Assembly (NCBI GenBank): GCA_948144175.1
Contig: CANXME010002100.1
Span: forward strand, 417,604-481,603
Origin: Closterium sp. NIES-65
Lineage: Eukaryota > Streptophyta > Zygnematophyceae > Desmidiales > Closteriaceae
Direction: 5' to 3'
Length of the DNA stretch: 64,000 nt
Positions 1 to 61,869 of the stretch are shown piece by piece. How positions within the stretch are numbered: position 1 is the first letter of the stretch; every line of letters starts with the position of its first letter. The position numbers were made by a program, and so were the translations under genes. The notes beneath the pieces were generated by a model, which saw nothing but the letters and a program-made list of their open reading frames with translations, did not search any database and had not been told where the DNA came from.

Positions 1-802
1 CAAAGCTGTTCAGAAATTAGTCACAAGTGGGGGAGCGGACAAGTCGGTTCATGAGTGATTAACACAATTGGGGTGAGTCAGAAGCAAAGGGTGCGTGGTG
101 TAAAATCGCCAGATTTAGGGGAAGTTTGTTGATTACAGAAACACCTTTTCTGTGATTCAATCTGCCGATTTAAGGTTACGATTCAGGTTCTGTAATTGCA
201 GCTGAATGGAGCGGCGAATCTGGTACAACTGAGGTGAAGTATAGGCTGGTCTTGACCAATGGGAGTGGTTGGTGGTGTTCAAGGAGCGAGTCTGACTTTT
301 TGGTTTTGAGCGAACTGTTTTGGAGGTTCTGATTGGCTGCCGTTCTAAATGGTAGTTTCTCATGAGTTCGAGAGAGCAGCTGCTCGCGCTGCCACTGTTC
401 TAGGAGCGAGATTGGTCCTTGTGTCACCAAATATGAACTTGTGTCACAGTGTTGCGCGGGTGTAGATTGTGGTGTAGCGAATGTTGGAATGGAAGTTGAG
501 ATTGAGTAGGGGGAGGACGAATTTGACGTTAGGAATGGGAGGGAAAGGACCTAGGGGCGAAATGCATTGAACCAATCAGGGAGGACCAGCCCAAACTCGA
601 GCCGCACATTGTGAAATGTGCGACTTGAGCCTGGGCAAGGTAAGTTCAGTCAGGAACATCCAGTCCATGCTTTTCGCTTGTTATTCTCTTGTCGTGAAAT
701 CAGTTGCTCTAGATCCTACATCCAGCAGCACGCCACTAGGAGGGAACCTACGGGGTGAGGGAGGGAACTTCTTCATAACAAGCGAAAAGGGCGCATCATC
801 GC
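1..802. other. No gene recognised; upstream flank of the methyltransferase retroelement
   Basis: Only short overlapping open frames occur here and none carries a recognisable motif. A consensus-like splice donor (CAAG|GTAAGT) lies near 636-646, so part of this stretch could be a 5' leader of the retroelement that follows. I found no matching copy of this stretch downstream that would mark it as an LTR. Confidence 0.4.
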
Positions 803-2623
803 GTGAGCATGGACAAGCACGAGCGGCGATGGGGCTGGCAGTATAGTCGCCGTGAGCAGGAGGAACGGCCGCGGCGCGAGCGCTCGCAAGAACGCGGGCG
901 CTCTCTGGAAAGATCGCCGCGGAGGCCGGCTTTCCGCGCTGATTGGGTCCTCCAAGCGCCAGATGGACGTGGAGGAGGTTCGGCCCGGGATGAAACCGGT
1001 GGGGCGGGATCCGCCATGTCGAGAGGCGATCCGTGGCAAACGGATGCGCGCGACGGATCTGGAGGCGATCGTCGATATTGCCGTGACACGAGGGCACATC
1101 CCTCGCCGGAAGAAGGGTACCACCGACGCGGAGAAAGCGACCGCGCGCGAGGTCTGCCAGGAGGGCATCTTGGTCAACGAGGAGATCTCGAGACGGACAG
1201 CGAAGGGGAGAATTCCCCCGTGGGGAAAATGCGGGAGGAAGGCCGCGGAGAAGGCGCGGACGAGGGCAGCGAGGATCAGCGACGCCAAGTGGAGGACGCC
1301 AGTGGGAGTCACGGCTCCACCGCTGGAGCCGACGAGGCTAACGCCGCGCGGGCGGACAGCACGGCGGACCAGAGCGAGGCAAAGGCCGACGGGCCAGAGG
1401 GCGCACGAAAGGAGCAGCGAGAGGAACGCCGCAACTGTCAGGAGGGAGATCCCTGGCCCGACCTGTGACAGCAGGACCGAGGAGAGCGGAACACGGAGTC
1501 ACGCATGTCCGGGCAGCGAGGACGACGCGGAGGAGGACGAGATGAACGGTCGCGCACGCCGGAAAAGCGTCGGCAATGCGGAGCAAGGCGAGGCGAGGGA
1601 TCACGCTCGCCCGATCCACAGCAGCGACGCGATGGGTGGCGCGGTGGCGGGGAGCGCTCGCCAGATCCGCATCCGCGACGCGAAGGGTGGCGAGGCGGCG
1701 GGGAGCGCTCGCCAGATCCGCATCCGCGACACGAAGGGTGGCGCGGTGGCGGGGAGCGCTCGCCAGAGCCGCATCCGCGACGCGAAGGGTGGTGCGGCGG
1801 CGGGGAGCGCTCGCCAGATCCGCATCCGCGACGTGAAGGGTGGCGCGGCAGCGGGGAGCGCTCGCCCGAACTGCACCAGAGACGTGAAGGATGGCGTGAT
1901 GTCAGGTCCCCCTCGCCAGATCTGCGCAGGCAGCGGGAAGGAGCACGTGATGAGGAATGGCAGTCGCCGTACGGCCGTCGGCAGCGTGGAGGAAGAAGAG
2001 ACGAGAGGTCACCATCGCCAGAGAAGCATCGGCGTGAGACGCGGCGGGAAGAACGGGGGAGGGCAGACCACTCGCTGGATGGGCAAGGTCAACGCACAGA
2101 AGGGCGCGCGAGCTCATGGGATCTGCATAAGGAGGCAAGATGGGACCAGCGGGGAAGCAAGGTTGGGGGCGGGAGTTTGGCATATAGTGCGGAACGAGCC
2201 AAGGAGGCGAGGGAAGGAATAGAGAGAGCAAGGGAAAGGGGGACACACAGAAGGCAGGCGAGAGCAACAAGCGAGTCCTGGGGAGAAGGTCGAGGGAGTG
2301 CGGTGGCGGCACCTCATGTGGAGGTCCCGGCGAGGTTCTCAGGAGATCAACGTACGGGGCCCTCGCTAAAGAATTACCTCATGCAAGCGGGTAATGTGCG
2401 GTATCGGTGCGACAGGAGCGGCATGGACCCGGTAGACTTCTTTCTGAGCCTACCTAACACACTGGAGGGGGAGGCGGAGACATTGTATCGGATGAGGATG
2501 GATGAGCTGTTGCGGAGGGCGGGAAGGCACGGTGAAGACCCCATGGAGGCGTTCCTCCGCCGGCTGCAGCGACAGTTTCCGGGACACACTGCAGAACGGA
2601 TAAGGGAGTTTCAGGACTTTTAA
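803..2623 (+). pseudogene. gag N-terminal part, interrupted by in-frame stops
   Basis: This frame opens at ATG 803 and is interrupted by TGA at 1466-1468 and TAA at 2621-2623, both in the same frame as the downstream polyprotein at 2633. The first 450 residues or so are very rich in Arg, Ser, Glu and Gly. A 57-bp tandem repeat gives about six copies of a 19-residue unit around GERSPDPHPRREGW. From about 2310 comes a Retrotrans_gag-like core (PARFSGD, then a stretch around AFLRRLQRQFPG). That homology continues past the TAA into MESLLTYYNRLI, so the stop lies inside the gag core and not at a natural gag/pol boundary. Decay is the simplest reading. Stop-codon readthrough is possible but no known readthrough context is recognised. 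An overlapping long frame at 852-2222 looks like a composition artefact. Confidence 0.6.
1615..1880 (+). repeat. 57-bp tandem repeat in gag, about 4.5 copies
   Basis: A 57-bp unit containing GGGGAGCGCTCGCCAGA recurs from about 1615 to 1880 with few changes. Since 57 is a multiple of three, it encodes a 19-residue repeat rich in Arg, Ser, Pro and Gly. It resembles RS-type RNA-binding tails, but the function is unknown. Confidence 0.8.
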
Positions 2624-2632
2624 AGGGGGCGG

Positions 2633-5374
2633 ATGGAGTCATTGCTCACATACTATAACCGACTTATCAACGTGGCGGAGGACGTGATGTGCACGGACAC
2701 CAGCCTCCTGATTAGCAAGTTCTTGGGGGGGCTGGACGAGAGCTTGGGGGGTGGCCTAAGGATGAGGGTGTATGAGTTGGGGGCAGATGCGAGCCTAGAA
2801 GAGGTATTCGAGCTAGCGGAAAAGGTGGAGCTCGCACAAAGGAAGTATGAAGCATACCTGCCCAAGCCGTCAGAGCGCAGCCGCAGGCCGACATGGGCAG
2901 CAGCGATGATTCCCGAGGAACGAGGGAGACCAGAGGGTCGAGGGGAGAGCAGGACTGATACTCGGACCTGTCACAGATGCGGGCAAGTGGGGCATCTGCG
3001 CAGGGACTGCAAGAAGTGTGATTGCTGCGGGAAGCCAGGGCACCGAAGGAGAGACTGTCCTGACGCCCCAAGCTGTGAGATGTGTGGCAAGAGGGGGCAC
3101 GAGGCAAAAGATTGCTATCAGCAGGAGGGAGGAGCAAAGAGGAACCCAGCAGACCTTGAGCGGCAGATCAGTAGACTGCAGTCGCAGCTGCAAGCATTAG
3201 GACCGAGGCAGGAAGCAGAGGCGGGAATGTACGCCGGGGATGAAGAAGGAGAAGAGGTGGAACAGGATGTGCAGTGTGCCCTCATGGCCTCGAGAGGCAG
3301 GGAAGAGATGGGGCTGAGAAGCGGGGGGAGAGACGGTAGACATGATCATGTGAGGAAGGAGCGGGAGAAGGGACGGAAACCAGAGGAGCAAGAGCAGGAG
3401 AATGTGCCAGCGCGCCACCCACAAGAGAGGCTGGCTTGTCAGACCTCCGTGCTACTGGTGAAGGGGGGTGCAATGAAGGTAGAAGGGGAGAGGGTGAGGA
3501 CTGCCATCATAGACACCGGGGCACAAAGTGTGATGCTGGGCAAGAGCATGGCAGAAAGGCTAGGATTGATGGCACCAGAGAAGCACGTAGCGAAAGGAAT
3601 GCTGGTGATGATGGCAGAAGGGGGGGAACCGAAGTGGATGCCGTGCACACGCACTCCCATAGAGTTGACCCTGCTGCCAGGGGAAGAACATGAGACCAAG
3701 ATCAGGATGAAGTGTGGAATCTCAGACTCAGAGGACTCCGACGTCCTGGTGGGCACAGAGATGGTGTTTGCAGTGGGGATGACGATATGCACGTGGACGG
3801 AGAAAGTGGAGTTCCGGACGCGATACTGGAAGAAGGAAGGGCCCTTGGGGCAGCTGCCCGTACAGTTCGTGAAGGTGGAGCCAAAGAGAGCATACCAGAC
3901 GACTGCAGGGCAGACGCCAGGGGAACAGCAGGCAAGGGGACAGAAGGGACCGAAAGGAGCAGAAGAAGAGCCCAAGATGAAGCGCATGGATGAGCAGAGG
4001 CACCAGATTGACTGGCGGCAGCCCATCCAACTGGTGGAGCTGTTCGGGGGAATCGGGGCAGGATTGGCAGCTGTGGTGAGGAGTGGAATCGCCGTGAGAC
4101 AGTGGATATACGTGGAACAGGCACCAGCAGCGAGGAAGATGGCTGAACACCACGCGTTGAAGTTACACGCAGAGTTTCCAGAGCTACTGAGCAGGGAGGT
4201 GATCCGGGAAGCAATGGGCAGAACCATTCATGACGTGAGGAAGGTGACAGAGGCAGAGGTAGCCAGCTGGGGGCAGGTGGACCTGCTGGTGGCAGGGTGG
4301 GAATGTCAAGGGGTATCATGGGCCGGAAAGGGGAAGGGAGAACTGGACCCCAGGACGAAGCTGATGGAGGACCTGTTTCGTATCATGGACTGGTTGCAGG
4401 AGAGGCAAGGCAGGGTGGCATACCTGCTGGAGAACTTGGACCTGGAAGGGGACAGCCGCGAGCCAATTCGGCTAGTGAGAGAGAAGATTAAGAGACAGTT
4501 GGGCAAGGGGGTGAGCTCTGATGCGGCAAGAATGGGGCCGTATGCACACCGGCTCAGGATGTATTGGCAAAACGTCGTGCCAGTGCAAGACCTGCAAGAC
4601 GAGGCGGACGGGGTGAGGAGAGCTTCGGGGAGAAAGGTACAGGACATCCTGGAGCCCGGGCGGACCCCTGCACCAGTGTGCAGGAAGAGCTACAGCAGGC
4701 ACTACCCATGTAATCAGGTGGGGCAAGACAGGCGGGCGCTGCCCACTCTGGTCGCCTATCAGGGGGCAGCCGGCTATAAGTGGGAAGCGGGGAAGCCGGG
4801 GCCGGGGTTAATATATGACCATAAGAGACGACAATGGGAGGAACCAACCGCGCTGGAGCGAGAGCTGGCCATGGGATATGGGGCGGATGTCACAGCACCC
4901 ACAGGGGTGAGCGAGGAAGAAAGGAGGAGGGCGCTACTAGGGTTTAGGGTGGGGTTGCGCACAGGGAGCACTACTACCAGGTGGGGTTGCGCACAGGGAG
5001 CACTACTACCAGGTGGGGTTGCGCACAGGGAGCACTACTACCAGGTGGGGTTGCGCACAGGGAGCACTACTAACAGGTGGGGTTGCGCACAGGGAGCACT
5101 ACTACCAGGTGGGGTTGCGCACAGGGAGCACTACTACCAGGTGGGGTTGCGCACAGGGAGCACTACTAACAGGTGGGGTTGCGCACAGGGAGCACTACTT
5201 CCAGGTGGGGTTGCGCACAGGGAGCACTACTACCAGGTGGGGTTGCGCACAGGGAGCACTACTTCCAGGTGGGGTTGCGCACAGGGAGCACTACTACCAG
5301 GTGGGGTTGCGCACAGGGAGCACTACTTCCAGGTGGGGTTGCCCACAGGGAGCACTGTCAGAACATATCTATAG
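2633..5374 (+). CDS. gag C-terminus, CCHC knuckles, retropepsin and cytosine-5 DNA methyltransferase-like fusion
   Basis: The open frame from ATG 2633 encodes 913 aa, but only about residues 1-770 (to near 4947) are element protein. The rest is the 32-bp array and copia-1 LTR read through. Order: gag core end (1-80), three CCHC knuckles at about 105-160 (CHRCGQVGHLRRDC, CDCCGKPGHRRRDC, CEMCGKRGHEAKDC), retropepsin at about 275-400 with DTGAQS and DVLVGTEM, a linker, then a methyltransferase domain at about 463-765. The domain shows motif I (LVELFGGIGAGL), DVRKVT ahead of VDLLVAGWECQGVSWAGKG (motif IV with the catalytic Cys but Glu for the usual Pro), motif VI LLENLD, motif VIII AHRLRMYW, and a C-terminal LERELAMGYGADV segment like the motif IX/X region. 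Order and spacing resemble DNMT3/DRM-type enzymes. No stop occurs within the domain. Activity is inferred, not shown. No stop separates it from the repeats. Confidence 0.8.
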   Translation: MESLLTYYNRLINVAEDVMCTDTSLLISKFLGGLDESLGGGLRMRVYELGADASLEEVFELAEKVELAQRKYEAYLPKPSERSRRPTWAAAMIPEERGRPEGRGESRTDTRTCHRCGQVGHLRRDCKKCDCCGKPGHRRRDCPDAPSCEMCGKRGHEAKDCYQQEGGAKRNPADLERQISRLQSQLQALGPRQEAEAGMYAGDEEGEEVEQDVQCALMASRGREEMGLRSGGRDGRHDHVRKEREKGRKPEEQEQENVPARHPQERLACQTSVLLVKGGAMKVEGERVRTAIIDTGAQSVMLGKSMAERLGLMAPEKHVAKGMLVMMAEGGEPKWMPCTRTPIELTLLPGEEHETKIRMKCGISDSEDSDVLVGTEMVFAVGMTICTWTEKVEFRTRYWKKEGPLGQLPVQFVKVEPKRAYQTTAGQTPGEQQARGQKGPKGAEEEPKMKRMDEQRHQIDWRQPIQLVELFGGIGAGLAAVVRSGIAVRQWIYVEQAPAARKMAEHHALKLHAEFPELLSREVIREAMGRTIHDVRKVTEAEVASWGQVDLLVAGWECQGVSWAGKGKGELDPRTKLMEDLFRIMDWLQERQGRVAYLLENLDLEGDSREPIRLVREKIKRQLGKGVSSDAARMGPYAHRLRMYWQNVVPVQDLQDEADGVRRASGRKVQDILEPGRTPAPVCRKSYSRHYPCNQVGQDRRALPTLVAYQGAAGYKWEAGKPGPGLIYDHKRRQWEEPTALERELAMGYGADVTAPTGVSEEERRRALLGFRVGLRTGSTTTRWGCAQGALLPGGVAHREHYYQVGLRTGSTTNRWGCAQGALLPGGVAHREHYYQVGLRTGSTTNRWGCAQGALLPGGVAHREHYYQVGLRTGSTTSRWGCAQGALLPGGVAHREHYFQVGLPTGSTVRTYL
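4021..4947 (+). other. Cytosine-5 DNA methyltransferase-like domain
   Basis: This sub-region of the polyprotein is predicted to transfer a methyl group from S-adenosylmethionine to cytosine. The SAM-binding glycine motif (ELFGGIGAG), the motif IV loop with WECQG, ENL, RLRMYW and the terminal MGYGAD segment occur in the family order. The Pro-Cys dipeptide that is nearly invariant in this family is Glu-Cys here. Target-recognition residues are not assignable by eye. Confidence 0.75.
4948..5355 (+). repeat. 32-bp tandem array, left part, about 12.7 copies
   Basis: A unit containing GGTGGGGTTGCGCACAGG then GAGCACTACTACCA is repeated head to tail, with single-base variants (taaca, ttcca). It starts directly after a telomere-like TAGGGTTTAGGG at about 4939-4950. 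As 32 is not a multiple of three, translation cycles through all three frames, which keeps the polyprotein frame open. Copia-1 interrupts the array at 5356. Confidence 0.95.
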
Positions 5375-5493
5375 CTTATACTGCTGTGTAGGCTGTAGTG
5401 GGGTATCCCATAGGGGGTACAACCCAGTTAGGGTTTCATATTTGTACTGCTTTCATTCATAGTTCATTTCATTCCTGTTTTCCTATTATCACA
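5356..5493 (+). repeat. copia-1 5' LTR
   Basis: The 138-bp LTR begins TGTCAGAACAT and ends TTATCACA. It contains the core shared by the window's copia-type LTRs: GTAGTGGGGTA, then a GGGTACAACCC-like box, then TTAGGGTTT and ATTTGTA. Its sequence is identical to 12470-12607. Confidence 0.97.
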
Positions 5494-5524
5494 TGGTATA
5501 GAGCGGGTCCTACCTTAGGACCGT
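5494..5524 (+). promoter_or_regulatory. Primer-binding site and leader hairpin of copia-1
   Basis: TGGTATAGAGC at 5494 is the position and sequence expected for priming by initiator tRNA-Met (canonical TGGTATCAGAGC, one base shorter here). It is followed by a perfect 7-bp stem, GGTCCTA (5506-5512) with TAGGACC (5516-5522), loop CCT. Hairpins of different sequence sit at the same place in copia-2, -3 and -4. Confidence 0.7.
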
Positions 5525-5539
5525 TGTCTGGGCCCACCG

Positions 5540-6295
5540 ACGCGCGCCCCGAGGCGCGCCCTTTTTTTTTTTAGCGACCCCTCGGGTCGCCTTTTCACTC
5601 GCGGCCCCGCCGCCTCCTCTGACGCGGCTTTGCCGCCTCCCCTGACGCGGCCCAGCCGCCTCCCTTAACGCGGCCCCGCCGCCTCCTCTGACGAGGCCCC
5701 GCCGCCTCCCCTGACGCGACTCCGCCGCCTCCCCTGACGCGGCCCCGCCGCCTCCATTCACGCGGCCCCGCCGCCTCCCCTGACGCGGCCACGCCGCCTC
5801 CTCTGACGCGGCCCCGCCTCTACTGCCGACGGCCCCGCCGCTGCACTCTACGGCCCGCCGCTGCACCCTGCCGGCCCGTCGCTGCTCCTGCCGGCCCGCC
5901 GCTGCACCCTGCCGGCCCGCCGCTGCTCCTGCCGGCCCGCCGCTGCACCTACCGGCCCGCCGCTGCACCCATCGGCCCGCCGCCTCTTCCGGCCCGCCAC
6001 TTGCACCTGCCGGCCCGCCGCTGCACCTACCGGCCCGACGCTGCACCTGCCGGCCCGACGCTGCATCTCCCGCCCGAGCCGCCCCAGCAGCCGAGCCGCC
6101 CGGGACCCGAGCCGCCCTGCCGCCGAGCCGCCCGGGAGCCGAGCCGCCCTGCACCCGAGCCGCCCAGCAACCGAGCCGCCCTGCACCCGAGCTGCCCAGC
6201 CGCCGAGCCGCCCGGGAGCCGAGCAGCTGTGCACCCGAGCCGCCCGGTCGCTGAGCCGCCCTTCTGCTGACTGCACGACCTGCCCTGCCTGGTGA
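5540..6295 (+). repeat. GC-rich low-complexity leader of copia-1
   Basis: About 750 bp between the primer site and the gag ATG consist of degenerate GCC/CGG-rich units (GACGCGGCCCCGCCGCCTCC, later CCGAGCCGCCC). They leave long open frames on both strands, which I do not treat as genes. Comparable leaders occur in all copia copies in the window. Confidence 0.8.
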
Positions 6296-6358
6296 GCACT
6301 GTCCCACTGACACTGCGAGCTCTTTCCCTACTGCTTGCACTGCGTCGCTGTCGTCACC

Positions 6359-9300
6359 ATGGCTACCCCTAGTGTCCTAGCTTTTGACGCTGAGGGTCGC
6401 GCCATTGATTTTGAGGTCTGGTTAGACGACCTGCAGCTGTTCTTACAGTGCGACAGGGCTGACGACCTTTCTCTCTTTGACCTCACCTCTGGCGCCTCTC
6501 CTGCCCCTGCTGCTGATGCTGATCCCGCTGTCCGCTCTAAGTGGGCCACCCGCGATGCTGCTGCACGTCTTGCTGTGCGTCGCCACCTCCCTACCTCTGA
6601 GCGTGCGCACTTTAGTCAGTACAAGAGTGCTCAGACCTTGTACGACGCTGTAGTTGCGCGCTACTCCTCCCCTGCCACTGCTGCACTGAGCCGTCTCATG
6701 CTTCCCTACCTCTTTCCTGACCTCTCTGCCTTTCCCACTGTCGCTGACCTCATTACGCACCTCCGCACTAGTGACACTCGCTACCGCGCCGCCCTTCCTG
6801 CTGAGTTCTGCGCTAAGAACCCCCCCCCCATGTACATCGCTCTCTACTACGTAGTCGCGCGCCTCCCTGACTCCCTTCGCGTCGTCAGGGACCACTTTCT
6901 CGCAGTCTGTCCCACCACCCTCACCGTCGACCTCCTCGAGAAGGCCCTCCTTGCAGCGGAGAAGAGTATAGTCGCTGTAGGTGCTTCTCGTGGTGACCCT
7001 CGCACCCCCATCTTTGAGGGGTGCTCTCCTTCCCCCTTGCTGCCCTCTGTTGCCTCTGCTGCTGCTGCCGACCTGCTTGGTCTTGAGTCGGTCGGCGCGG
7101 CGTCTGCCCCTAGTGGGAGACGTCGCTCCAGCAGGGGCAAGGGGGGCAAGGGCGCGGGTGGAGCTGGAGGGGGCGGTGGCGGTGGCGGCGGTGGCGGCGG
7201 AGGGAGTGGGGGTGGCGGCGGGACTAGTGGCGGGGGTGGTGGTGGTGGTGGCAGCAGCGGCGGAGACGGTGGTGGTGGTGCCAGCGGTGGTGGTGGAGGC
7301 AGCGGCGGAGGTGGAGGCGGCGGAGGTGGAGGCGGTGGAGGCGGCAGCGGAGGAGGCGGTGGTGGTGGAGGAGGTGGAGCTGGTCGGGGTGGTACCCAGC
7401 AGCGTAGCGGCGGTGGTGGTGGCCAGCGCTCGCACCGGCAGCAGCAGCAGCGCTCGCGGGACATCCCTTCGCCTCAGCAGCTTCGTGAGTGGTACGCTGG
7501 GCGTCAGAGGGGTGGGGGTACTGGTCCCTGCACCTACGTTCTTCGTTCCGGCGACCGCGCGGGTGAGCAGTGTGGGGGTGCCCACGCCACCCAGCGCTGC
7601 TTTGGCCGCCTGACGGACGCTTGGCGTCAGCAGTTCCCTGGGGCTAGTGAGATCCCTCGCTGGGATGAGCTTCTCAGGGCTGGTGTAGCGATCTTTGATC
7701 TTGATTTTGATGCTATCCTTACTGCTATGTATGTTGTGGATTATAGTGAGGAGAATGAGGGTTACCGGTGTTTTCAGCCCGACCCGGGCATTGGTACTGC
7801 TGCGCTAGGTGCTTGTGAGGCTGCTGCTCTAGGTGCCAGTGCGTCTGCGCTCTCAGGTACTGGTGAGACTGCGCTCTCAGGTACTGAGTCGTCCTCGTCC
7901 TCCCTCACTTTCACACTTGACTCCGGAGCTTCTCGCTCCTTCTTTCGAGACCGCACTACCCTTTCGCCGCTCGCCAGGCCGGTTGCGGTCTCCCTTGCTG
8001 ACCCCTCTGGGGGTCCTGTCCTGTCTCACTTCTCCACTGTCCTCCCGTGTCCGGCTGCCCCTTCGGGCACCCTGTCGGGTCTGTACCTTCCCTCGTTCTC
8101 TACGAACTTGGTGAGTGGAGCGGACCTGCAGGATGGGGGTGTTCACCAGTTCACTCCTGCGCGTCAGAGGGTGACCCACTGCACGGAGGCTCGCACAGGC
8201 CGACACCTGGCCACGTTCTCACGTCGGCCGGGGTCGAGTCTCTACACCCTGACCGTTGAGTCTCCTCCTGTCCCTGCGTCTGGTCAGGTGGCTGCGTCGG
8301 GTCAGGTACTTGCTGCTGCGTCCCGGTCAGGTCCTGAGTCTGCCCCCTGTTCTTGTCGCCTCCTGTCTCACGAGACTCTCCTGTGGCACCACCGTCTTGG
8401 CCACCCCTCCTTGCCCCGTCTTCGGAGCATGGCTTCCCGTGTCCTTGTCTCTGGTCTTCCCCAGTCTCTCCCTCCTCTCCCCTCCGGGCCAGGACCTTCC
8501 TGTGTCCCCTGTGTCGAGGGTCGCCTCCGGGCTACTCCTCACTCCTCCCACTTCCCCCCGACAGAGGCTCCCCTGCAGACGCTTCACATGGATGTGTGGG
8601 GCCCAGCTCCCGTCCGTGGGCAGGGTTACGAGCGCTACTTCCTGTTGGTGGTTGACGACTACTCGCGTTACACCACAGTCCTCCCCTTGCGCAGCAAGGG
8701 TGCGGTCACTGAGGTGCTGATCGACTGGATCCGCGAGGCTCGTCTCCAGCTCAGGAAGAGCTTCGGCTCGGACTTTCCTGTTCTGCGTCTGCACTCTGAC
8801 AGAGGCGGAGAGTTCTCTTCTCGCCTTCTGCGAGACTACTGTCGTGCACGGGGGATCCGCCAGACCTTCACGCTTCCGGACTCACCACAGCAAAATGGGA
8901 TTGCTGAGCGCCGCATTGGCATGGTCATGGATGTCGCTCGTACGTCCATGATGCATGCGGCTGCCCCCCATTTTCTGTGGCCGTTTGCGGTGAGGTACGC
9001 GGCGCATCAGCTCAACCTTCACCCCCGGGTCTCTCGGCCAGCGATGTCCCCAGCCTTGCTGTGGACGGGGAAGGTTGGTGATGCGTCTGTGTTCCGTGTC
9101 TGGGGATCTCGGGCGTTTGTCCGCGACTTGTCTGCGGACAAGCTGTCCCCTCGTGCTGCTCCCTGTGTCTTCCTTGGCTTCCCCACTGACGCCCCAGGGT
9201 GGCAGTTTTACCACCCCTCCTCTCGTCGTGTTCTGTCCTCCCAGGACGTCACGTTCGACGAGTCAGTCCCCTTCTACCGTCTCTTCCCCTACCGCACTCC

Positions 9301-12262
9301 TTCCCTCCCCCCTCCCCCGGACTTCCTTGTGCCGGTTCCCCCCCCGGTAGACCCCCTCCCCCCTCAGGTTCCTGCCCCCTCAGGTGTATCCCAGGTAGAC
9401 GCCGTTGACCCGGTCGAGGTTACTGGTGACTCTGGTGCTGCTGCGGGTGCTGAGCCTGGGGGTGCTGACTCTGGGAGTGCTGTGCGCGGGGGTGCTGAGC
9501 CTGGGGGTGCTACTGCTGGGGGTGCTGGGCCTGAGGGTGCTACTGCGGAGGGTGCGGAGCCTGGGGGTGCTGAGCCGGGGGGTGCTGTGCCTGGAGGTGC
9601 TGGGTCTGGGGGTGCAGGGTCGGGAGCTGCTGAGCCTGGGGGTGCTGAGCTGGGAGCTGCTGAGCCTGGGGGTGCTGCGTCTGGAGCTGCTGAGCCTGGG
9701 GTTTCTCCTGCTGCTGCATCTCGCCGGGAGCCCCTCTCTCCACAGGAGCTGCGCGAGTGGTTCGCTCGCCGCTGGAGGCGTGCTGCTGAGTCTGGAGGTG
9801 CTGCTGGAGCTGGAGCTGGAGCTTCTTCGACCGTAGAGGGTGCGGGTGCAGCCGGTCCCGGAGCTGCTGGCCCTGCAGGTCCTCCTGGAGCTGGAGCTGC
9901 TGAGGGCGTTCGTGCTGAGCCTGCTGCTGTTGGTCCTGCCGCTGGAGGTGTGGGTGGCGCTGGTGCTGTCGCTGAGGGTGCTGGTGCTGTCCCTGCTGAG
10001 TCTGGAGCTGCCGCGCGGCCTCGGCCGTACTTCGTTCCGCTCCTTCAGCAGGTTCTTGGTCTTTCTCCTCCAGTAGAGGGTCCACCGCCTGTCCAGTCGC
10101 AGCCCCTACTGGAGCCTTCCTCTCCACTGCCTGCTCCCTCTCCTTACACTAGTCCTACTGGAGGTCTTGCTGAGCGTCGTGAGCCTGCGTCTCGTCCCGC
10201 GTCACCTGTTCGTGCTGCTCGCGCTAGTGGTCGCAGTTCGCGTCAGCGTCCTCCTCCTGTCCCTGGCACGCACCGGATGTCTTTACGTCCGTCCACTGCT
10301 CCTCTGCGTGCCCCTTTGCCTTCTCCTCCTGAGTCCTCTCTTCCTGCGCTTGCGGACCCTGAGTCGGACTCTCTTCGTGCTGCCAGTCCCACTGTCACGC
10401 GTCTCCTTGCTACTGTCGTCACTGACCCCTCTTTTGAGTCCACTGCTGCGTCTGCTCTAGTCGCTGAGCTCGTCGACTTTGCTGCTCGCTGTCGTCTCGA
10501 CTACGCTGCTAGTCTTGTTGCTGAGTCTGCGTCTGTCTGTCCTCCGTCCGTCGGGGGTGAGTGTGCTCTTGGCACGGACGTCCTAGAGGACAGGCAGGAG
10601 GAGTTACAGTGTCTAGCGGCTGCTTCACCTCATCTCGCGTCTGTACTGCTTGCCCCTGAGGGAGACCCGGATGCACTAGACATCCCGACTCCGCGTTCTT
10701 ACGCGGAGGCCGTAGAGGGTCCCTACTCCTCTCAGTGGCAGGCAGCTATGGATGCAGAGATGGCTTCCTGGAAGTCCACAGGCACCTACGTTGACGCGGT
10801 TCCCCCTCCTGGGGCGAACATCGTCAGTGGCATGTGGATCTTCCGGGTGAAGCGGCCGCCGGGCTCTCCACCTGTCTTCAAGGCACGGTACGTTGCTCGT
10901 GGCTTCAGTCAGCGGCAGGGAGTTGACTACTTTCAGACCTTCTCTCCCACCCCGAAGATGACTACTCTTCGGGTGCTGCTGCACATAGCCGCTCAGCGTG
11001 ACTACGAGCTTCACTCTCTCGACTTCAGCACTGCGTTCTTGCAGGGTAGCCTGCACGAGGAGATCTGGCTTCGCCGTCCACCTGGCTTCACTGGGACTTT
11101 CCCTCCTGGCACCCAGTGGAGCCTCCGACGGCCAGTCTACGGTCTCCGCCAGGCACCGCGTGAGTGGCACGACACACTGAGGACTACGCTTGCGGCTCTT
11201 GGGTTTGCTCCTTCTACTGCTGACCCGTCGCTGTTTCTTCGCACCGACACTTCCCTGCCGCCGTTCTACATCCTCGTGTACGTCGACGACCTGGTCTTTG
11301 CCACAGCGGACACTGCTGGACTCGCCTACGTGAAGTCCGAGCTGTTGAAGAGACACACGTGCACAGACCTGGGTGAACTGCGCAGCTACCTTGGCTTGCA
11401 GATCACTCGGGACAGAGCACGCCGCACCATTACCTTGACTCAGTCACACATGGTGCAGCAGGTCCTTCAGCGCTTCGGCTTCACGTACTCCTCGCCTCAG
11501 GCCACTCCTCTGCCTACTCGCCACTCACTCTCAGCTCTGCCTTCGGATGAGTCCGTAGAGTCGAGTGGTCCGTATGCGGAGCTTGTTGGCTGCCTCATGT
11601 ACCTGATGACCTGCACACGACCTGACCTTGCATACCCTCTGAGCATTCTTGCACGCTATGTTGCTCCTGGGAGACACAGACCGGAGCACATGGCTGCAGC
11701 GAAGAGGGTATTGCGCTACCTGTGCAGTACGTCAGGCATGGGGCTTGTGCTTGGAGGGCGGAGTCCAGTGGTCCTTACCGGCCACGCGGACGCTTCTTGG
11801 GCTGACGACCAGGCTACGCAGCGGTCGTCACAGGGTTACACCTTCAGCCTTGGTTCCGGCTCTGTCTCGTGGCGGTCTACTCGCTCGTCTTCGGTTCTCG
11901 GCTCCAGTTGTGAGGCTGAGATCTACGCCGGGGCCATGGCTGCACAGGAGCTTCGCTGGCTCACCTACCTGCTGACTGACCTTGGAGAGCCGCCTCGTTC
12001 TCCTCCAGTGCTGTACGTAGACAACAAGGCTATGCTGGCCTTGTGTCGAGAGCAGCGCTTGGAGCACAGAACGAAGCACATTGCTCTCCGCTACTTCCTT
12101 GCTCGTGAGCTGCAGCAGCGTGGTCAGTTGCGACTTGCGTACGTGGCCTCTGAGGCCAACACTGCTGATGTGTTCACCAAGGCACTTGCGCCTTGTGACC
12201 ATCAGCGCTTCTGCACCCAGCTGGGTCTTGTGCCTGTCTTGCCTCACTTGCTCTCCTCTTGA
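6359..12262 (+). CDS. Gag-Pol polyprotein of copia-1
   Basis: This intact Ty1/copia polyprotein has 1967 aa from ATG 6359 (MATPSVLAFDAEG, good Kozak ACCATGG, start conserved in copia-2, -3 and -4). An upstream ATG at 6335 would add 8 residues. Order: gag (1-390) with a poly-Gly tract at about 267-342; a Zn-like motif C-x13-C-x3-H-x4-C at about 390-415 in place of the usual knuckle; protease LDSGAS (about 518); integrase with WHHRLGHP and CVPC, catalytic HMDVWGP, HSDRGGEF and QNGIAER (about 677-960); a [12 protein letters not shown] repeat linker (about 1024-1117); reverse transcriptase with YVDD (about 1640); RNase H with HADASWADD, SSCEAEIY and YVDNKAML (about 1807-1957). All catalytic residues are visible, so it is probably competent. 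It supplies particle, protease, integrase and RT functions, possibly also for the non-autonomous elements nearby. Confidence 0.96.
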   Translation: MATPSVLAFDAEGRAIDFEVWLDDLQLFLQCDRADDLSLFDLTSGASPAPAADADPAVRSKWATRDAAARLAVRRHLPTSERAHFSQYKSAQTLYDAVVARYSSPATAALSRLMLPYLFPDLSAFPTVADLITHLRTSDTRYRAALPAEFCAKNPPPMYIALYYVVARLPDSLRVVRDHFLAVCPTTLTVDLLEKALLAAEKSIVAVGASRGDPRTPIFEGCSPSPLLPSVASAAAADLLGLESVGAASAPSGRRRSSRGKGGKGAGGAGGGGGGGGGGGGGSGGGGGTSGGGGGGGGSSGGDGGGGASGGGGGSGGGGGGGGGGGGGGSGGGGGGGGGGAGRGGTQQRSGGGGGQRSHRQQQQRSRDIPSPQQLREWYAGRQRGGGTGPCTYVLRSGDRAGEQCGGAHATQRCFGRLTDAWRQQFPGASEIPRWDELLRAGVAIFDLDFDAILTAMYVVDYSEENEGYRCFQPDPGIGTAALGACEAAALGASASALSGTGETALSGTESSSSSLTFTLDSGASRSFFRDRTTLSPLARPVAVSLADPSGGPVLSHFSTVLPCPAAPSGTLSGLYLPSFSTNLVSGADLQDGGVHQFTPARQRVTHCTEARTGRHLATFSRRPGSSLYTLTVESPPVPASGQVAASGQVLAAASRSGPESAPCSCRLLSHETLLWHHRLGHPSLPRLRSMASRVLVSGLPQSLPPLPSGPGPSCVPCVEGRLRATPHSSHFPPTEAPLQTLHMDVWGPAPVRGQGYERYFLLVVDDYSRYTTVLPLRSKGAVTEVLIDWIREARLQLRKSFGSDFPVLRLHSDRGGEFSSRLLRDYCRARGIRQTFTLPDSPQQNGIAERRIGMVMDVARTSMMHAAAPHFLWPFAVRYAAHQLNLHPRVSRPAMSPALLWTGKVGDASVFRVWGSRAFVRDLSADKLSPRAAPCVFLGFPTDAPGWQFYHPSSRRVLSSQDVTFDESVPFYRLFPYRTPSLPPPPDFLVPVPPPVDPLPPQVPAPSGVSQVDAVDPVEVTGDSGAAAGAEPGGADSGSAVRGGAEPGGATAGGAGPEGATAEGAEPGGAEPGGAVPGGAGSGGAGSGAAEPGGAELGAAEPGGAASGAAEPGVSPAAASRREPLSPQELREWFARRWRRAAESGGAAGAGAGASSTVEGAGAAGPGAAGPAGPPGAGAAEGVRAEPAAVGPAAGGVGGAGAVAEGAGAVPAESGAAARPRPYFVPLLQQVLGLSPPVEGPPPVQSQPLLEPSSPLPAPSPYTSPTGGLAERREPASRPASPVRAARASGRSSRQRPPPVPGTHRMSLRPSTAPLRAPLPSPPESSLPALADPESDSLRAASPTVTRLLATVVTDPSFESTAASALVAELVDFAARCRLDYAASLVAESASVCPPSVGGECALGTDVLEDRQEELQCLAAASPHLASVLLAPEGDPDALDIPTPRSYAEAVEGPYSSQWQAAMDAEMASWKSTGTYVDAVPPPGANIVSGMWIFRVKRPPGSPPVFKARYVARGFSQRQGVDYFQTFSPTPKMTTLRVLLHIAAQRDYELHSLDFSTAFLQGSLHEEIWLRRPPGFTGTFPPGTQWSLRRPVYGLRQAPREWHDTLRTTLAALGFAPSTADPSLFLRTDTSLPPFYILVYVDDLVFATADTAGLAYVKSELLKRHTCTDLGELRSYLGLQITRDRARRTITLTQSHMVQQVLQRFGFTYSSPQATPLPTRHSLSALPSDESVESSGPYAELVGCLMYLMTCTRPDLAYPLSILARYVAPGRHRPEHMAAAKRVLRYLCSTSGMGLVLGGRSPVVLTGHADASWADDQATQRSSQGYTFSLGSGSVSWRSTRSSSVLGSSCEAEIYAGAMAAQELRWLTYLLTDLGEPPRSPPVLYVDNKAMLALCREQRLEHRTKHIALRYFLARELQQRGQLRLAYVASEANTADVFTKALAPCDHQRFCTQLGLVPVLPHLLSS

Positions 12263-12469
12263 CTTCACTTGTACTGTGACATATATGTATACCTGCTCTT
12301 GCTTGTCTAGCTTTATATATATGTCTGTACTCTTGCTTGTGAACTGGCCTTTGGCCTTGCTCTTGTGCTCGGACTGTGTGGTGACTTTGTGATCCACCCT
12401 GAGCTTTGCTTTGTCTTGCTTGACTGGTCTTGTGACCCCTTGTTCTCCCCCACTTTGCCTATGGGGGTG

Positions 12470-12607
12470 TGTCAGAACATATCTATAGCTTATACTGCTG
12501 TGTAGGCTGTAGTGGGGTATCCCATAGGGGGTACAACCCAGTTAGGGTTTCATATTTGTACTGCTTTCATTCATAGTTCATTTCATTCCTGTTTTCCTAT
12601 TATCACA
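12470..12607 (+). repeat. copia-1 3' LTR
   Basis: This 138-bp LTR is identical to 5356-5493. It is preceded by a purine tract at 12461-12469 and followed by the agcac target duplication. Confidence 0.97.
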
Positions 12608-12852
12608 AGCACTACTACCAGGTGGGGTTGCGCACAGGGAGCACTACTACCAGGTGGGGTTGCGCACAGGGAGCACTACTTCCAGGTGGGGTTGCGCACA
12701 GGGAGCACTACTAACAGGTGGGGTTGCGCACAGGGAGCACTACTACCAGGTGGGGTTGCGCACAGGGAGCACTACTTCCAGGTGGGGTTGCGCACAGGGA
12801 GCACTACTACCAGGTGGGGTTGCGCACAGGGAGCATTACTACCAGGTGGGGC
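12608..12852 (+). repeat. 32-bp tandem array, right part, about 7.6 copies
   Basis: This is the continuation of the array at 4948-5355 after the copia-1 insertion, in the same unit phase apart from the agcac duplication. It decays after about 12850 into related CAGGGAGCA-containing sequence up to about 12960. Confidence 0.95.
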
Positions 12853-13886: not shown

Positions 13887-15103
13887 GCCAAGATCGCTGA
13901 CTTCGGGTTGCTCAAGAAGCTCGCTGAGTCAGATGGGGGCGGCGACACAACGCGGGTGGCGGGAACACCAGGCTACGTGGATCCGGACTACAACCGAACG
14001 CACGTGGTGACTAAGAAGAGCGACGTGTACAGGTCTGTTGCTCCCACAGAGAATAGCATATTATAGATACATTCACACACGCACGTTGCAGCTGTGGCAC
14101 ACACTGGCTTAGCCATGCGCTATTTATGTTCAGCGGATGCTATTGAAGCATCCACATGCAAAGTGCCATCTGTGAAACTGCCTGCACATGGGGAATCCAA
14201 TTCTGCTCCCCCTTTCTTTTACATTGTGGGCTGCTTTGGAGTTGTACTGCTATAGCTGCTGACAGGGCATGGGCCGCAGGTGGAGGGCACCAACCGGCAC
14301 ATCTGCCGTGGGTGAGAGCGTGAGGCCTGTGAGCATGAGGCCAGCGTGCATGAGGCCAGCGTGCATGATAGAAGTACAAGTGAATGGCAGCAATATCAAG
14401 CAGTATCAGCACGTGTGCGTGATAGCAACATTTATTGGTTGCAGCTTGGGTGCATCGCAGCAGCATGAAGTGATAACAGTGTGCGTGCATGCGCGTCACT
14501 AACATCATGTGATAGCACGGTGTGAGCATGAGAGCATTATTAGGTTATAGCAGCAAATGTTGCATAAGTGATAGCACAATGCGTGCATGGTACCAAGTTA
14601 GCAACATTCAAGGGTAGCAGCATGTGTCCATGGAAGCAATATTCAGTGATAGCCATGTCTGTGCATGATAGGAACTTTCATTGGAAAATGTGTGTGCATG
14701 GTAGTACTATCAATCGATTGACGTGTCTGTGCATGATAGAAACATGCACTGATAGCAGCGTCCGCCCATGTTTGTTTGTGTTTCCCCCCTTCCCACAACA
14801 TCCACACCACTCCCCACCGCACGGCAGGCGACCAGCAAGGTGCAGGCGTATGAGTTTGCGTCACTCAAGGACCCCAAGCTGGAGGCACCGGAGGAGGCGG
14901 TGGTGGAGCTGGCAGACATCGCTCTCGACTACGTCAAAGTGCCCGGCTCCCGCCGCCCCGACATGAAAGACCTCGCACGCCGCCTGCAGGGCATCCTCAC
15001 CAAGTACTGTGCGGACGGTTCTTCCAGTAGCAGCGCCAAACCTGCGATTCACGTGGAGGAGAGACCCGGCTTTGGAGGCGGCACAGCGTGGATACGCTTG
15101 TGA
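13887..15103 (+). pseudogene. Plant receptor-like protein kinase, C-terminal kinase-domain pseudogene
   Basis: Three exon-like blocks encode the second half of a Ser/Thr kinase domain. Block 1 (13887-14032, after AG, before GT) has KIADFGLL and GTPGYVDPDYNRTHVVTKKS, the DFG-to-APE activation segment of plant RLK type. Block 2 (about 14234-14311) reads FGVVLL, then TAG (14253-14255) where Glu is expected, then LLTG and VEGTNRHICR. The dinucleotide before it is TG instead of AG, and one base is missing before its donor. Block 3 (14828-15103) has LKDPKLEAPEEAV, LADIALDYVK and RRPDMKDLARRLQ, ending in TGA. The nonsense codon, the lost acceptor and the frameshift mark a pseudogene. Upstream lobes (P-loop, HRD) are not seen, so it may be truncated. 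Confidence 0.75.
14312..14827. repeat. Degenerate dispersed repeats in the kinase-pseudogene intron
   Basis: Imperfect units containing GTGCATGATAGCAAC or similar recur about every 60-70 bp with heavy divergence. I see no coding content. Confidence 0.5.
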
Positions 15104-18963: not shown

Positions 18964-21524
18964 CTACCCCCCTCCCAAGGAGGCGACGTCCGCGGCGCCT
19001 GCAGACTGGAGGTACGCTTGGAGGCAAGCGTTGTCAGGAGACAGCGAGGACGAAGGAACCCAGCTGTCGTCGGCTGCGTCGTAACCACGCCAACGAACCA
19101 AGAAGGTGATGAAAGAGACACCCCCCTGCAGACGGCGCCGGTGCCTGAGGATGCGCTGGATCTGGTAGTCGGGCTCGTCGGTGTCAACAGCTAGCGGCAG
19201 TGGATTGCGATCACGGCCCGAGAAGGTGGCGTTGGGATCGGTGTAAGGTCGAAGAAGAGACACGTGGAATGACGGGTGCATGCGGAAATGAGCGGGAAGG
19301 CGGAGGCGGTATGCGACTGGACCAAGTGTGCGCTCAATGACGAATGGACCAATGAAGCGAGGGCGAAGCTTGCTGTCCTGTGGCAGTCGGAGGTTGCGGC
19401 TATCCAAGAGAACACGATCGCCGACTGCGAACGACACCTCACGACGACTTCGGTTGGTGGTGCGTGCCATGCGTGCATTTACGAGCTCAAGGTGCTTCCT
19501 CACGTGATCATGGATGAATGTAAGATGCTGGTGGAAGTTGTCCGCACGAGGGACTGTGGGTGTGAGATCGACACGAGTGGGGACATTGGGGTGCTGACCG
19601 TACAGTGCAAAGAACGGTGACATGCCTGTGGACGAGTGGTGCGTGTTGTTGTAGGCGAACTCGGCCATGCTCAGCTTCTTGTCCCATGCGGCTGCGTCGT
19701 GCATTGTGATGCTGCGAAGAATCTGCTCAAAGGTCTGGTTCACACGCTCGGTCTGTCCGTCTGTCTCTGGATGGTACGCAGACGACATGGCTAAGCGAGT
19801 CCCAAACAGTGCGAAAAGCTGCTTCCAGAACTTCGAAGTGAAACGAGGGTCGCGGTCTGAGATGATGGAATCTGGAACCCCGTGCAGTCGGACTACGTTA
19901 TCTACGAACAGCATCGCGGCTTCCTCTGATGTGACCTTGCCGTGCGTGGGGATGAAGTGCGCTGCTCGAGAAAACTTATCCACTACCATGAACATGGCGT
20001 CGTGACCCCTAACTGTGCGCAGTAAAGCCATGATGAAGTCCATCGTAACTACCTGCCAAGGGCGGTCGGGTGGTGGAATCGGCTGCAAAAGTCCTGCCTT
20101 GCGCTGGCGAGAGGACTTCGTACGCTGACACTTGTCTCACGAGCGAATGTAATCCTCTACGTCTACTGCAAGCCCTGGCCAGAAGTACATGCGACTAAGC
20201 GTCTTAGCCGTCTTATCTGCTCCGAAGTGCCCTGCACTAACTACGTCGTGCGCCTGTGAGAGAAGGAGCTGTCGAAGAGGGCGGTAGGCAGGTACCCAAA
20301 TCCGTGTGGTACCCTTCCTTATATAGACACTACCCTACACCTCTGCTCCTACGGGCGGCTGCGGTGTGAAGTCGGGATCTATTGTGTAACCGTGCTTGAA
20401 GAGTGCTGTGAGAAGTGGATGGCCGGCAGTAACTGCGAGACTAGCGAGCTGGCAACTAGGGCGAGTGAGCGGATCTGCAGGGTTGCGAACGCCTGGCTTG
20501 TACTCTATCCTGTAGTGAAAACTCCCCTCCATGAACTCCATCCATCTAGCCCGGCGACGACTCAGCTGCGGTTGTGACTTGAGAAAGCGAAGCAAGCAAT
20601 GGTCCGCGCGTATCACACTATCTGCCCCCTCTAGGTAGCACCTCCACACCTTATACGCATGGATGATCGCGAGCGCCTCCTTGTCGTGCATGGGATAGTT
20701 CGACTCCGCTCCCCTAAGCTTACGCGACTCGTACGTGATCGGCTGCAACCCGCGTCCCTGACCCTGAAGAAACACTGCTCCTATGGCCTGATCTGAAGAG
20801 TCGGTCACTACAACGTACGGGCAAGTGGGATCAGGGTACGACAGTGTCGGTGAAGACGTGAGCGACTGCTTCATCTGCTCGAACGCCTGCTGCTGCGCTG
20901 GACCCCAAACGTACTCTACGCCCTTCCGAAGAAGGTCGGTGAGTGAACTAGCGATCGATGCGTAACCCTGAACGAAACGACGATAATAATTGGCGAATTC
21001 GAGAAAGCTCTGCAACTCTTTGACTGAGGTCGGTGCTACCCAATCCTGTACTGCTGCGATCTTCTTCGGGTCGGTCCTAATGTCACTAGGGATACGACGT
21101 GTCCTAGGAACTCGACCTCGGGGAGAAAGAATTCGCACTTTGACTGCTTCGCGTACAGCTTCTCCCTTCGCAAGACCTCAAAGACCCTCTGCAAGTGTTG
21201 CACGTGCTCCTCTTTCAACTTGGAGAAGATCAGGATGTCGTCTAGGTAAACGACCACGAACGAACCTAGGAACTCTGAAAGGGCGGTGTTCATGAGCGTC
21301 TGAAACGTCGCTGGGGCGTTGGTCAAGCCGAACGGTAGAACTCTAAACTCGTACAACCCCTGCTTCGTACGAAACGCCGTCTTGTGCTGGTCCTTTGGAA
21401 TTACACGAATCTGATGGTAACCCGAACGAAGGTCGATCTTTTAGAAGACTCTAGCGCCCTGCACTGCATCGAGAAGATCCTCTACTCTCGGCACCGGGAA
21501 TCTATTCTTGACGGTGGCGGCGTT
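18964..21524 (-). pseudogene. Gypsy pol, 3' half: RT fingers/palm, RNase H, integrase, chromodomain
   Basis: Read on the minus strand from the copia-2 junction at 21524, it has RT with [18 protein letters not shown] and [10 protein letters not shown]; RNase H with TDSSDQAIGAVF and HDKEALAI; integrase with an HHCC finger, TMDFI, SDRDPRF and HPETDGQTERVN (D, D, E present); and a C-terminal chromodomain around YQIQRILRHR and FLVRWRGYDAADDSW, which places it among chromoviruses. Lesions: TAA in the RT (21441-21443), a frameshift near 21090-21130, a stop at 20335 ahead of the integrase finger, and TGA (20137-20139) where the last Cys pair of the finger starts. The longest open piece (18964-20088) is the integrase core plus chromodomain. 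The element cannot make functional Pol. Confidence 0.93.
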
Positions 21525-28940: not shown

Positions 28941-29860
28941 GCGTTCAGTGCGCGGTAATCTATGCACATCCGTAACCCTCCGTCTTTCTTAGGCACGAAC
29001 AGGATCGGTGCTGCCCAAGGCGATCTAGATGGTTGTATGAACCCCTGCGCGAGAAAGTGCCTAGCCTGCTGCGTCATCTCTTCTGTCTTAGCTGGACTAA
29101 ACCTCCACTGCGGCTTCGCTACTGGCCTGCTCCCCGGCTCCAACTCTATTCGATGGTCTACTGCTCGGCTGGGAGGTAACCCTGGGGGCAACTCGTCGGG
29201 GAAGACGTCTGCGAACTCTGCTAATAGTGCACTCACCTCAGCAGGAAGAGTCGCCTTCGCACCAACTGCTGCACTCCCTCCTTTCCCCTCCTCAGCTTCC
29301 ACCTCCTCAAGGAAAACCGCGAAGATCCGTGCCGGACACTTCAGTAACTGTCGCACACGAACAGCATTAATAATAGCTGTGGATGATGTGGCCCCATCGC
29401 TCCACTGTGGCAGCTCCCGGAAATCCCCGTCTACCTTGACGCTGCAGCTTCCCTGAGCCCAATTGAATTGAGTACTAACTGTTCGTAGACAATCCCTACC
29501 GAAGATGAAGTCGTAACCGTCCAGCGTCGCTGAGTCGAAGTCGCGCCTAACTGTGATCAGTCCTAATACTACGCGCAACTTGCGGATAACCGGTCCAATG
29601 TGAAGAGGCGTCCCATCTATCATGCGAGCATCCTTGAAGTTGACTGCGGAATCTGCTTCAAGATGGAGGCGGCTGACTAACGATGAAGACACGAACGAGT
29701 GGCTAGCTCCGCTATCTACGAGAATCTTAACAGGAACTCCGCGAAGCTTCCCTAGAAGCACGACTGGTTGGTCAATAGTGTCTACCTCGTTCTCCGTAGA
29801 TGACTGCTGCAAAGCCGTCTCCTCTATGTTGGTAGACGTGGCGGGTACGGGAACCTCCAC
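28941..29860 (-). pseudogene. Gypsy pol, 5' half: retropepsin and RT N-terminus
   Basis: The minus-strand frame from 29860 encodes a retropepsin-like domain (VKILVDSGASHSFVSS, then YDFIFGRDCL) and the start of RT (LPPGLPPSRAVDHRIELEPG, FIQPSRSPWAAPILFVPKKD, LRMCIDYRALN). It is cut by copia-2 at 28941 and continues at 21524. Sequence read beyond 28941 in the same frame belongs to the copia LTR. Confidence 0.92.
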
Positions 29861-60400: not shown

Positions 60401-61370
60401 TGCTTTCCTTACCTTGCCGTCACAATCTGCTCATATGTGCCGTTCTGTATATTATGATGATGTTAGGTGCATGCATTCAAGCATTGGATGGTACTGATGC
60501 TTGTATTGTGTGTTGGTCTGTTATCGTTGGATTTATACTGCCCTCTCCTCCACCTTTTTTTGAGCTTCGTACGGTGTATATCTTCCCCATATGTTAGGCT
60601 TCATTTACAGCAAAGCGCGCTGGGAGCTCTGGATGTTCACGTCGACAATGTTTTTGCAGCGTCACAATGAAGATTTCCATCACTCTAGCCAATATGTTAC
60701 GAGACGATTCGTGGCAGCAATCCTTCCCGAGCATAATGATGCTTTGACAAGCAGTGGCCGTCCTGCCACTTAGCACCGACGAGTATAAGAGAAGGCTTCA
60801 GCAAGCAGAACTCGATTGAAACCTGGGGACGCGGCAGCATCCCTAACAGCTGCCTTGCTCCAGTATGAAATTGACTAGTTCGAGGTGGGTGGCGATTTTC
60901 AGGCGGGAGAAGCTAAGGCGCCCCACCAAAGACTTCACTGGGACTCGGGAGAGCTATACGCAGTTTGTAGGCAACAATGATGAACTACAAGGTAGCTTGC
61001 CTAGCTCTGTCTGAGTAGTGCTTGTGCATGTCATTGATACATGAATAAAAAAACGTTGCGATGAATACTTCACAAACTGAGCCGAAAGAAGAAGCTGTGA
61101 AGGATGCGGTGCAGATGGAATTGCAAGAGTGAATGCTCTCACAACTTGAGCCGAAAGAAGAAGCTGCGAAGGATGCGGTGCAGATGGAATTGCAAGAGTG
61201 CAAGTTCACGATTCAGTATCGACTAGGGAAGAGAATGCAGCATGTGTGATGGCTTATCTTGGAATCTGCAGATGGTGAAGCTGTTAATAGCTTTCATGAC
61301 ATCGGCACCGGAGCCGTCCACCAAGCTATGAGCTGAGCTAACGAAAGGAGCGCCACGGACCTTGGGCGGA
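60400..61370. other. No clear gene; one 65-bp tandem duplication
   Basis: The segment GAGCCGAAAGAAGAAGCTGT, with surrounding bases through GATGGAATTGCAAGAGTG, occurs at about 61078-61132 and 61146-61200. No domain is recognised, and the remainder looks like decayed or intronic sequence of the hAT-like locus. Confidence 0.4.
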
Positions 61371-61457
61371 TATGGAGACTGGCATCGTTTACAAGGGGAG
61401 ACGAGTCAAAAATGCGTGTGGTATCTGTAGGGCACATAAAAGGGGGCAACACTGTAG

Positions 61458-61865
61458 GTGGCTCCAAGGTCAAGTGCAAATGAGAACTCTAGACCGATGG
61501 AAGAAGTCACGGAGTGCCTTGGGCGAGAATCCATTATTCCGAAAGTCCAGAACCAGTTGGGTCTTTATGGGTTGCCTATGCGCATAACAGCTGCTATAGA
61601 CAAGATGGTGGTGGGCAGGGATGAGACACTGGGTGGCTATGTGAGAGTTCTATATCCGGAACAGAGCGGCGCTCGCATGAAGCAAAGCGGCAGTGCCCAT
61701 CATGGGATTCGAGTTCCACTGGTCGTTGGATATAGTTGGAGGGCAGTCATAGCCACGCAAAGGCAGGAGGAAACCAAGCAGGTCATGATAGAGGACCGTC
61801 AACAAGGGGGCAGAAATACGGGCCTAGACAATGAAGTATGTAGCAACTGTAGTACAGACATGTGA
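61458..61865 (+). CDS. Unidentified open frame, 135 aa
   Basis: The frame encodes a hydrophilic protein (RVLYPEQSGARMKQ, HHGIRVPLVVGYSWR) without a recognised domain. It overlaps another frame with a Cys-rich stretch (CGICRAHKRGQHC). It could be a chance ORF or an exon remnant. No start context or neighbour supports function. Confidence 0.2.
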   Translation: MAPRSSANENSRPMEEVTECLGRESIIPKVQNQLGLYGLPMRITAAIDKMVVGRDETLGGYVRVLYPEQSGARMKQSGSAHHGIRVPLVVGYSWRAVIATQRQEETKQVMIEDRQQGGRNTGLDNEVCSNCSTDM

Positions 61866-61869
61866 GGGA

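Follow-up and report, generated by a model that had tools for sequence, protein, structure and literature searches.

A probable truncated Ty3/Gypsy-type polyprotein with a DNMT3-like methyltransferase domain in Closterium sp. NIES-65

Introduction

How a DNA-methylating enzyme comes to lie within a retroelement polyprotein, and what it might do there, are the questions raised by a locus of the zygnematophyte alga Closterium sp. NIES-65. The stretch analyzed here (the window; 64,000 nt, positions 417,604 to 481,603 of contig CANXME010002100.1) contains an open reading frame (ORF) of 913 aa at 2633-5374, in which the end of gag and a retropepsin are followed by a cytosine-5 (C5) methyltransferase-like domain. 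We consider it likely that 809-4936 is a truncated, non-autonomous copy of a Ty3/Gypsy-type family of a Closterium-like zygnematophyte, with a methyltransferase that would act on the element's own cDNA or insertion. The predicted order of the intact family is gag, zinc knuckle, protease, DNMT3-like cytosine methyltransferase, reverse transcriptase (RT), RNaseH and integrase.

Domains of the gag-protease-methyltransferase frame

Of the 1375 codons of this frame between 809 and 4933 two are stops, whereas each of the other five frames has 16 to 48 over the same stretch, and on this ground we describe the window copy as what is left of a long polyprotein after decay. The start at 809 was picked by eye as the first ATG past a GTG at 803. 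The gag part (809-2620, forward strand as for all parts of the element) was delimited by translation, a tandem repeat and alignments with two of the related proteins returned by our searches (numbered P0001 onwards). Its N-terminus is rich in Arg and Ser and contains a tandem repeat of 51 bp that stays in frame (1604-1896); the gag core follows, and no gag domain was among the Pfam matches of the window frame. The two in-frame stops lie at 1466-1468 and 2621-2623, the latter being spanned by alignments with both P0001 (2423 to 4732, at 77%) and P0005 (from 2492).

The C-terminal part of gag (2633-3115) carries three CCHC zinc knuckles of the pattern C-x2-C-x4-H-x4-C at 2969-3010, 3017-3058 and 3074-3115 (PF00098, 6.7e-9). 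A retropepsin-like protease follows within approximate outer limits of 3470-3760, its active site IIDTGAQSV being located at 3506-3532 (Asp_protease_2, PF13650, 1.3e-5, 26.2 bits, cut-off 24.3), and the knuckles and DTGA retropepsin agree with what is expected of the upstream part of a Ty3/Gypsy element. The methyltransferase domain occupies 4010-4936, spanning motifs I to IX and ending within motif X, with ELFGGIGAG (4037-4063), GWECQGVS (4295-4318), YLLENLD (4421-4441), HRLRMYW (4547-4567) and ELAMGYGAD (4862-4888) in order. It was recognized by alignment, by the DNA_methylase profile (PF00145, 1e-5, 25.6 bits, cut-off 22) and by comparison with the PDB, where DNMT3A was matched at 2.6e-7 with the single sequence and at 8.6e-17 with an alignment of five; among known C5-methyltransferases DNMT3 is the closest. 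Motif I, the Cys of motif IV, the Glu of motif VI and the Arg-x-Arg of motif VIII are present in order and the fold of the model agrees. On the strength of the fold and the other motifs we hold that the predicted domain is a C5-methyltransferase with a variant active site.

An earlier note, made from the sequence alone, had listed the gag end, three CCHC knuckles, DTGAQS retropepsin and ordered methyltransferase motifs, all of which were located in ORF 2633-5374, and the profile score above cut-off bears out its methyltransferase call. The extent it gave, 2633-4947, corresponds to a real frame and needs correction at both ends, gag extending upstream to about 809 and homology stopping at 4936.

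Relatives of the element and fate of the window copy

Three protein searches were carried out, the first and third of which scored the 8000 candidates sharing most words and gave incomplete lists. The first returned at least 39 matches, with part of the query aligned at identities of up to 82%, and at least 37 of these carry a Closterium name (NIES-53, -54 and -65). The third gave at least 62, newly including Closterium NIES-67, Naga37s-1 and the liverwort Calypogeia fissa. Of the separate Closterium assemblies, NIES-53 and NIES-54 are those with proteins in which the fusion of gag, protease and methyltransferase recurs, and together with the PF00145 match this upholds the retroelement fusion proposed earlier. 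A retroviral-type protease and a Glu-Cys methyltransferase are also joined on one predicted C. fissa protein (P0152), a gene model suggesting that the kind may extend to land plants. In the metagenomic P0083, protease and methyltransferase are followed by a C-terminus resembling the RT start and preceding stretch of Closterium proteins at 26–31%.

That host exons or otherwise unrelated pieces have been joined only by misassembly, an option the earlier note had itself raised, finds its sole support in the abrupt entry at 4937-4948 into a repeat array, a kind of sequence on which assemblers are prone to err. This explanation is refuted for the protease-methyltransferase join because it turns up again in other assemblies and species (NIES-53, NIES-54, C. 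fissa and P0083), and the nested element described below, with its identical ends and target duplication, also speaks against it; as a general account of the locus we regard misassembly as extremely improbable.

Homology to P0005 and P0020 stops at 4936, within motif X, and a weak P0019 alignment reaches 5074. Where relatives read RRRALGNAMDG and continue, the window reads RRRALLGFRVG and passes into a 32-bp minisatellite, found by Tandem Repeats Finder and a repeat search at about 4948-5356 with a second part at 12608-12851 (forward strand); beyond 4948 the ORF simply runs through this array and contains no domain. A Copia element (5356-12607, forward strand) is nested in the minisatellite, as judged from identical 138-bp long terminal repeats (LTRs) at 5356-5493 and 12470-12607, duplication of AGCAC at its edges (5351-5355 and 12608-12612) and an ORF at 6335-12262 encoding integrase and RT domains. 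The array picks up again at 12608 and the Copia element is a recent insertion into it. A telomeric origin of the junction was considered and rejected, since the TTTAGGG present there has 11 occurrences across the window.

The Ty3/Gypsy pol order of RT, RNaseH and integrase, before which the window copy is cut, is observed in two relatives. P0020 has the methyltransferase followed by RT (450-554), RNaseH (639-740), an integrase zinc domain (844-898) and rve (918-1010), and P0125 has a knuckle, protease, methyltransferase, RT, RNaseH and integrase zinc domain. Because homology breaks off in motif X and relatives continue into pol, the lack of pol domains (RT and integrase) and the appended array are, by comparison of the predicted proteins, the history of one copy and not family architecture. 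The suggestion that this layout might be new is accordingly not supported. There is no second copy of 1-4950 anywhere in the window, nor any close pol: beyond the element, tblastn of P0020 found pol stretches at 19576-21524, 28943-29131 and 61184-62319 at 27–37% identity (one 21-residue piece at 57%), and tblastn of P0005 and P0019 found pieces within 20776-21524 at 31–44%. In the history we propose, pol would have been lost by a break within motif X that joined the copy to the minisatellite, with a later Copia jump into the array, and the window copy is very likely inert.

Several proteins (P0001, P0015 and P0016) stop after the methyltransferase without RT, as would be expected if a gag-protease-methyltransferase gene had been domesticated by the alga and put to use in its own silencing, the window copy being one member. 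De novo methylation is carried out by DNMT3-like enzymes in other hosts. Such short gene models may, however, be just fragments; other copies continue into RT, RNaseH and integrase, many diverged copies are present in each strain, and the window copy is itself truncated and twice interrupted by stops, all of which makes domestication very unlikely.

Glu-Cys in motif IV of the methyltransferase

Motif IV of the window domain reads Gly-Trp-Glu-Cys-Gln, with Glu in place of the Pro that normally precedes the catalytic Cys, PCQ being described in passages of PMC6709928 as the conserved triad of this motif in C5-methyltransferases. A methyltransferase-domain profile matched 177 of the 181 proteins that the searches had returned, and 118 domains with at least 225 aligned residues were kept after removal of fragments and split rows. 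Cys is present in all 118, preceded by Pro in 78, Glu in 39 and Asp in one. Among all 153 rows with a readable motif IV, whatever their length, the counts are 91 Pro, 61 Glu and one Asp, and the catalytic Cys is lost in two rows (Ser in P0026, Gly in P0168). The substitution is universal in the 33 readable rows of the 59 named Closterium (32 Glu, one Asp, no Pro) and is also found in 29 of 120 non-Closterium rows, the other 91 having Pro.

Clustering at 80% identity removed 28 rows and left 91 (60 Pro and 31 Glu/Asp, window included). In a tree built without the motif IV column the label changes at least six times, at least three changes being forced by starred branches, and with two further columns omitted seven changes were counted. 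A single clade for the 31 Glu/Asp rows was rejected by the approximately unbiased (AU) test (p 0.009). This was a quick tree with support from the Shimodaira-Hasegawa-like approximate likelihood ratio test (SH-aLRT) only, several oddly composed rows and one distant DNMT3A chain as outgroup, and it has no power to separate gain from loss. Two base changes are needed to turn a Pro codon into a Glu codon, and Ala and Gln never occur at the site. From these alignments the Glu-Cys active site appears to have arisen more than once. Coupling of the Glu to Phe in motif I or to a non-Val residue in motif VI was dismissed, two independent pairs on supported branches putting significance out of reach, as was kinship with fungal RID/Masc1 enzymes, whose oddity according to passages of PMC6709928 lies in motif VI, their motif IV being PCQ. 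No published mention of Glu-Cys (ECQ) in motif IV of cytosine-5 methyltransferases was found in the single literature search aimed at it, among the 12 papers listed of 35, which is weak evidence of absence given that the literature searched had no preprints and few subscription journals.

The substitution could mark loss of the usual reaction, the domain being a dead or non-methylating passenger such as a nucleic-acid binding module. Replacement of the residue beside the nucleophile in every readable Closterium copy would fit this, as would the structure of M.HhaI, in which, in passages of PMC4802922, the Pro carbonyl is hydrogen bonded to the motif VI Asn, a residue replaced by His in four of our 31 Glu/Asp rows. 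Against it stand the invariant Cys of the full-length domains and, in all 31 Glu/Asp rows, an unaltered Glu in motif VI and an unaltered pair of Arg in motif VIII. Repeated arrival at the same Glu is also unexpected from decay; we consider a passenger unlikely.

Position of the methyltransferase in pol

Sixty proteins were scored for both domains, and in 56 of them the methyltransferase follows RT (exceptions P0019, P0021, P0031 and P0033); split-domain Closterium rows and P0083 lay outside this count. It lies before RT in the Closterium proteins and the metagenomic P0033. P0040-P0127 and P0037, six of them named Chlamydomonas eustigma, are a large set of Gypsy-type pol proteins from algae and metagenomes with RT, RNaseH, methyltransferase and integrase (e.g. 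P0044, P0089, P0115 and P0123). The PHD finger PF00628 was present in 64 of the 90 matches of the second search. P0123 has an additional weak chromodomain match.

A single clade of the thirteen protease-side rows (Closterium, P0033, P0083 and P0152), a group defined partly after the tree was seen, was rejected (p 0.013). In an RT tree with one non-DNMT Gypsy as outgroup, the grouping of Closterium with P0033 has an SH-aLRT of 90 (unstarred) and that of the RT-before-DNMT rows one of 69, a result that does not separate one capture from several. Because two slots in pol are occupied and a single protease-side clade is rejected, more than one move or capture of the module is probable, as far as these predicted proteins indicate. 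A broader, tentative and somewhat doubtful proposal is that retrotransposon methyltransferases are a module widespread in algae and early land plants, shifted between Gypsy-type pol slots and repeatedly swapping Pro for Glu. Glu-Cys would then reflect, instead of decay, an adaptation to the substrate that a retroelement offers (such as single-stranded cDNA or an RNA-DNA hybrid) or an altered cytosine reaction.

Comparison with known systems

Similar fusions had been said to be known already, correctly: PMC5890265 (2018) describes DNMT-carrying retrotransposons in dinoflagellates and one charophyte, and DNMT3 members within streptophyte and dinoflagellate retrotransposons are mentioned in passages of PMC12344493. 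KnitGypsy-Dnmt3 of Klebsormidium nitens is by its description also a Gypsy-type LTR element from a streptophyte alga, and its Pol contains a Dnmt3-related domain that is not rearranged; it differs in having repeats arranged as in DIRS (PMC5890265). No K. nitens protein was in the match lists of the three protein searches, two of them limited to 8000 candidates as above. SymbioDIRS-Dnmt3 and SymbioLINE-Dnmt of Symbiodinium are likewise retroelements encoding a cytosine methyltransferase, but are a tyrosine-recombinase DIRS and a LINE (PMC5890265), whereas the relatives of the window element have Gypsy-type integrase and RNaseH. The algal and environmental Gypsy-type pol proteins, including those of C. 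eustigma, have a homologous methyltransferase (in the second search Closterium P0020 was matched at 4.5e-31 and P0125 at 1.7e-25) and differ from Closterium in its position, mostly behind RT, in the frequent PHD finger and in a motif IV that is mostly, not always, Pro-Cys. Mammalian DNMT3A and DNMT3B are free cellular enzymes with Pro-Cys in motif IV and without gag, protease or RT.

The fusion of retrotransposon and DNMT is a known rarity, but the enzyme of this family has an unusual active site. No published account of Closterium elements of this kind was found, again weak evidence in literature with no preprints and few subscription journals; in the main text of the Closterium genomes paper (PMC10407611) methyltransferase and retrotransposon each occur 0 times. 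A scan of viral_contigs gave 43 pattern matches and no relative. The matches extend DNMT-carrying retrotransposons to Closterium, a liverwort gene model, C. eustigma and a large environmental set with at least two pol slots, often with a PHD finger, a chromatin reader, beside the methyltransferase. The repeated exchange of Pro and Glu next to the catalytic Cys offers a direct handle on enzyme function, with one scaffold in both forms.

Possible role of the methyltransferase

As part of pol, the methyltransferase would stay with RT during cDNA synthesis, cytosine methylation of the new copy being its likeliest act. It is possible, short of probable, that it is a working C5-methyltransferase which methylates either the cDNA of the element or its fresh insertion, thereby disguising it as host DNA or shaping the chromatin at the target. 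Methylation of the element's new copy has been proposed as a role of retrotransposon DNMTs, and two dinoflagellate DIRS enzymes gave CG methylation in yeast (both PMC5890265). Several observations weigh against the reading of 809-4936 as a Ty3/Gypsy-type copy with a self-directed methyltransferase. With the Pro before the catalytic Cys replaced, activity is not to be presumed, and Closterium P0026 has Ser for the Cys itself. The K. nitens enzyme was without methylation in yeast, a result called inconclusive by its authors (PMC5890265). The CpG ratio is 0.57 in the protease and methyltransferase parts and 1.14 in gag, with a window median of 0.715, giving no clear mark of self-methylation; CpG depletion was discarded as proof of it, being uneven along the element. 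The LTR-element class is predicted here from coding domains, and the 3' end is lost in this copy.

Other features of the window

Another Gypsy pol lies at 18964-21524 on the reverse strand, with integrase, RNaseH and RT pieces in ORFs and without methyltransferase homology in tblastn; its C-terminus resembles a chromodomain. A further integrase-like Gypsy piece, at about 30% identity to P0020, is present at 61184-62319 on the forward strand. Downstream of the minisatellite two exon-like stretches on the forward strand (13888-14033 and 14829-15103) read KIADFGLLKKL...GTPGYVDPDY, presumably from a plant-type protein kinase. Approximately 100 copies of a 21-bp unit, with 96% matches, occupy 38543-40649.
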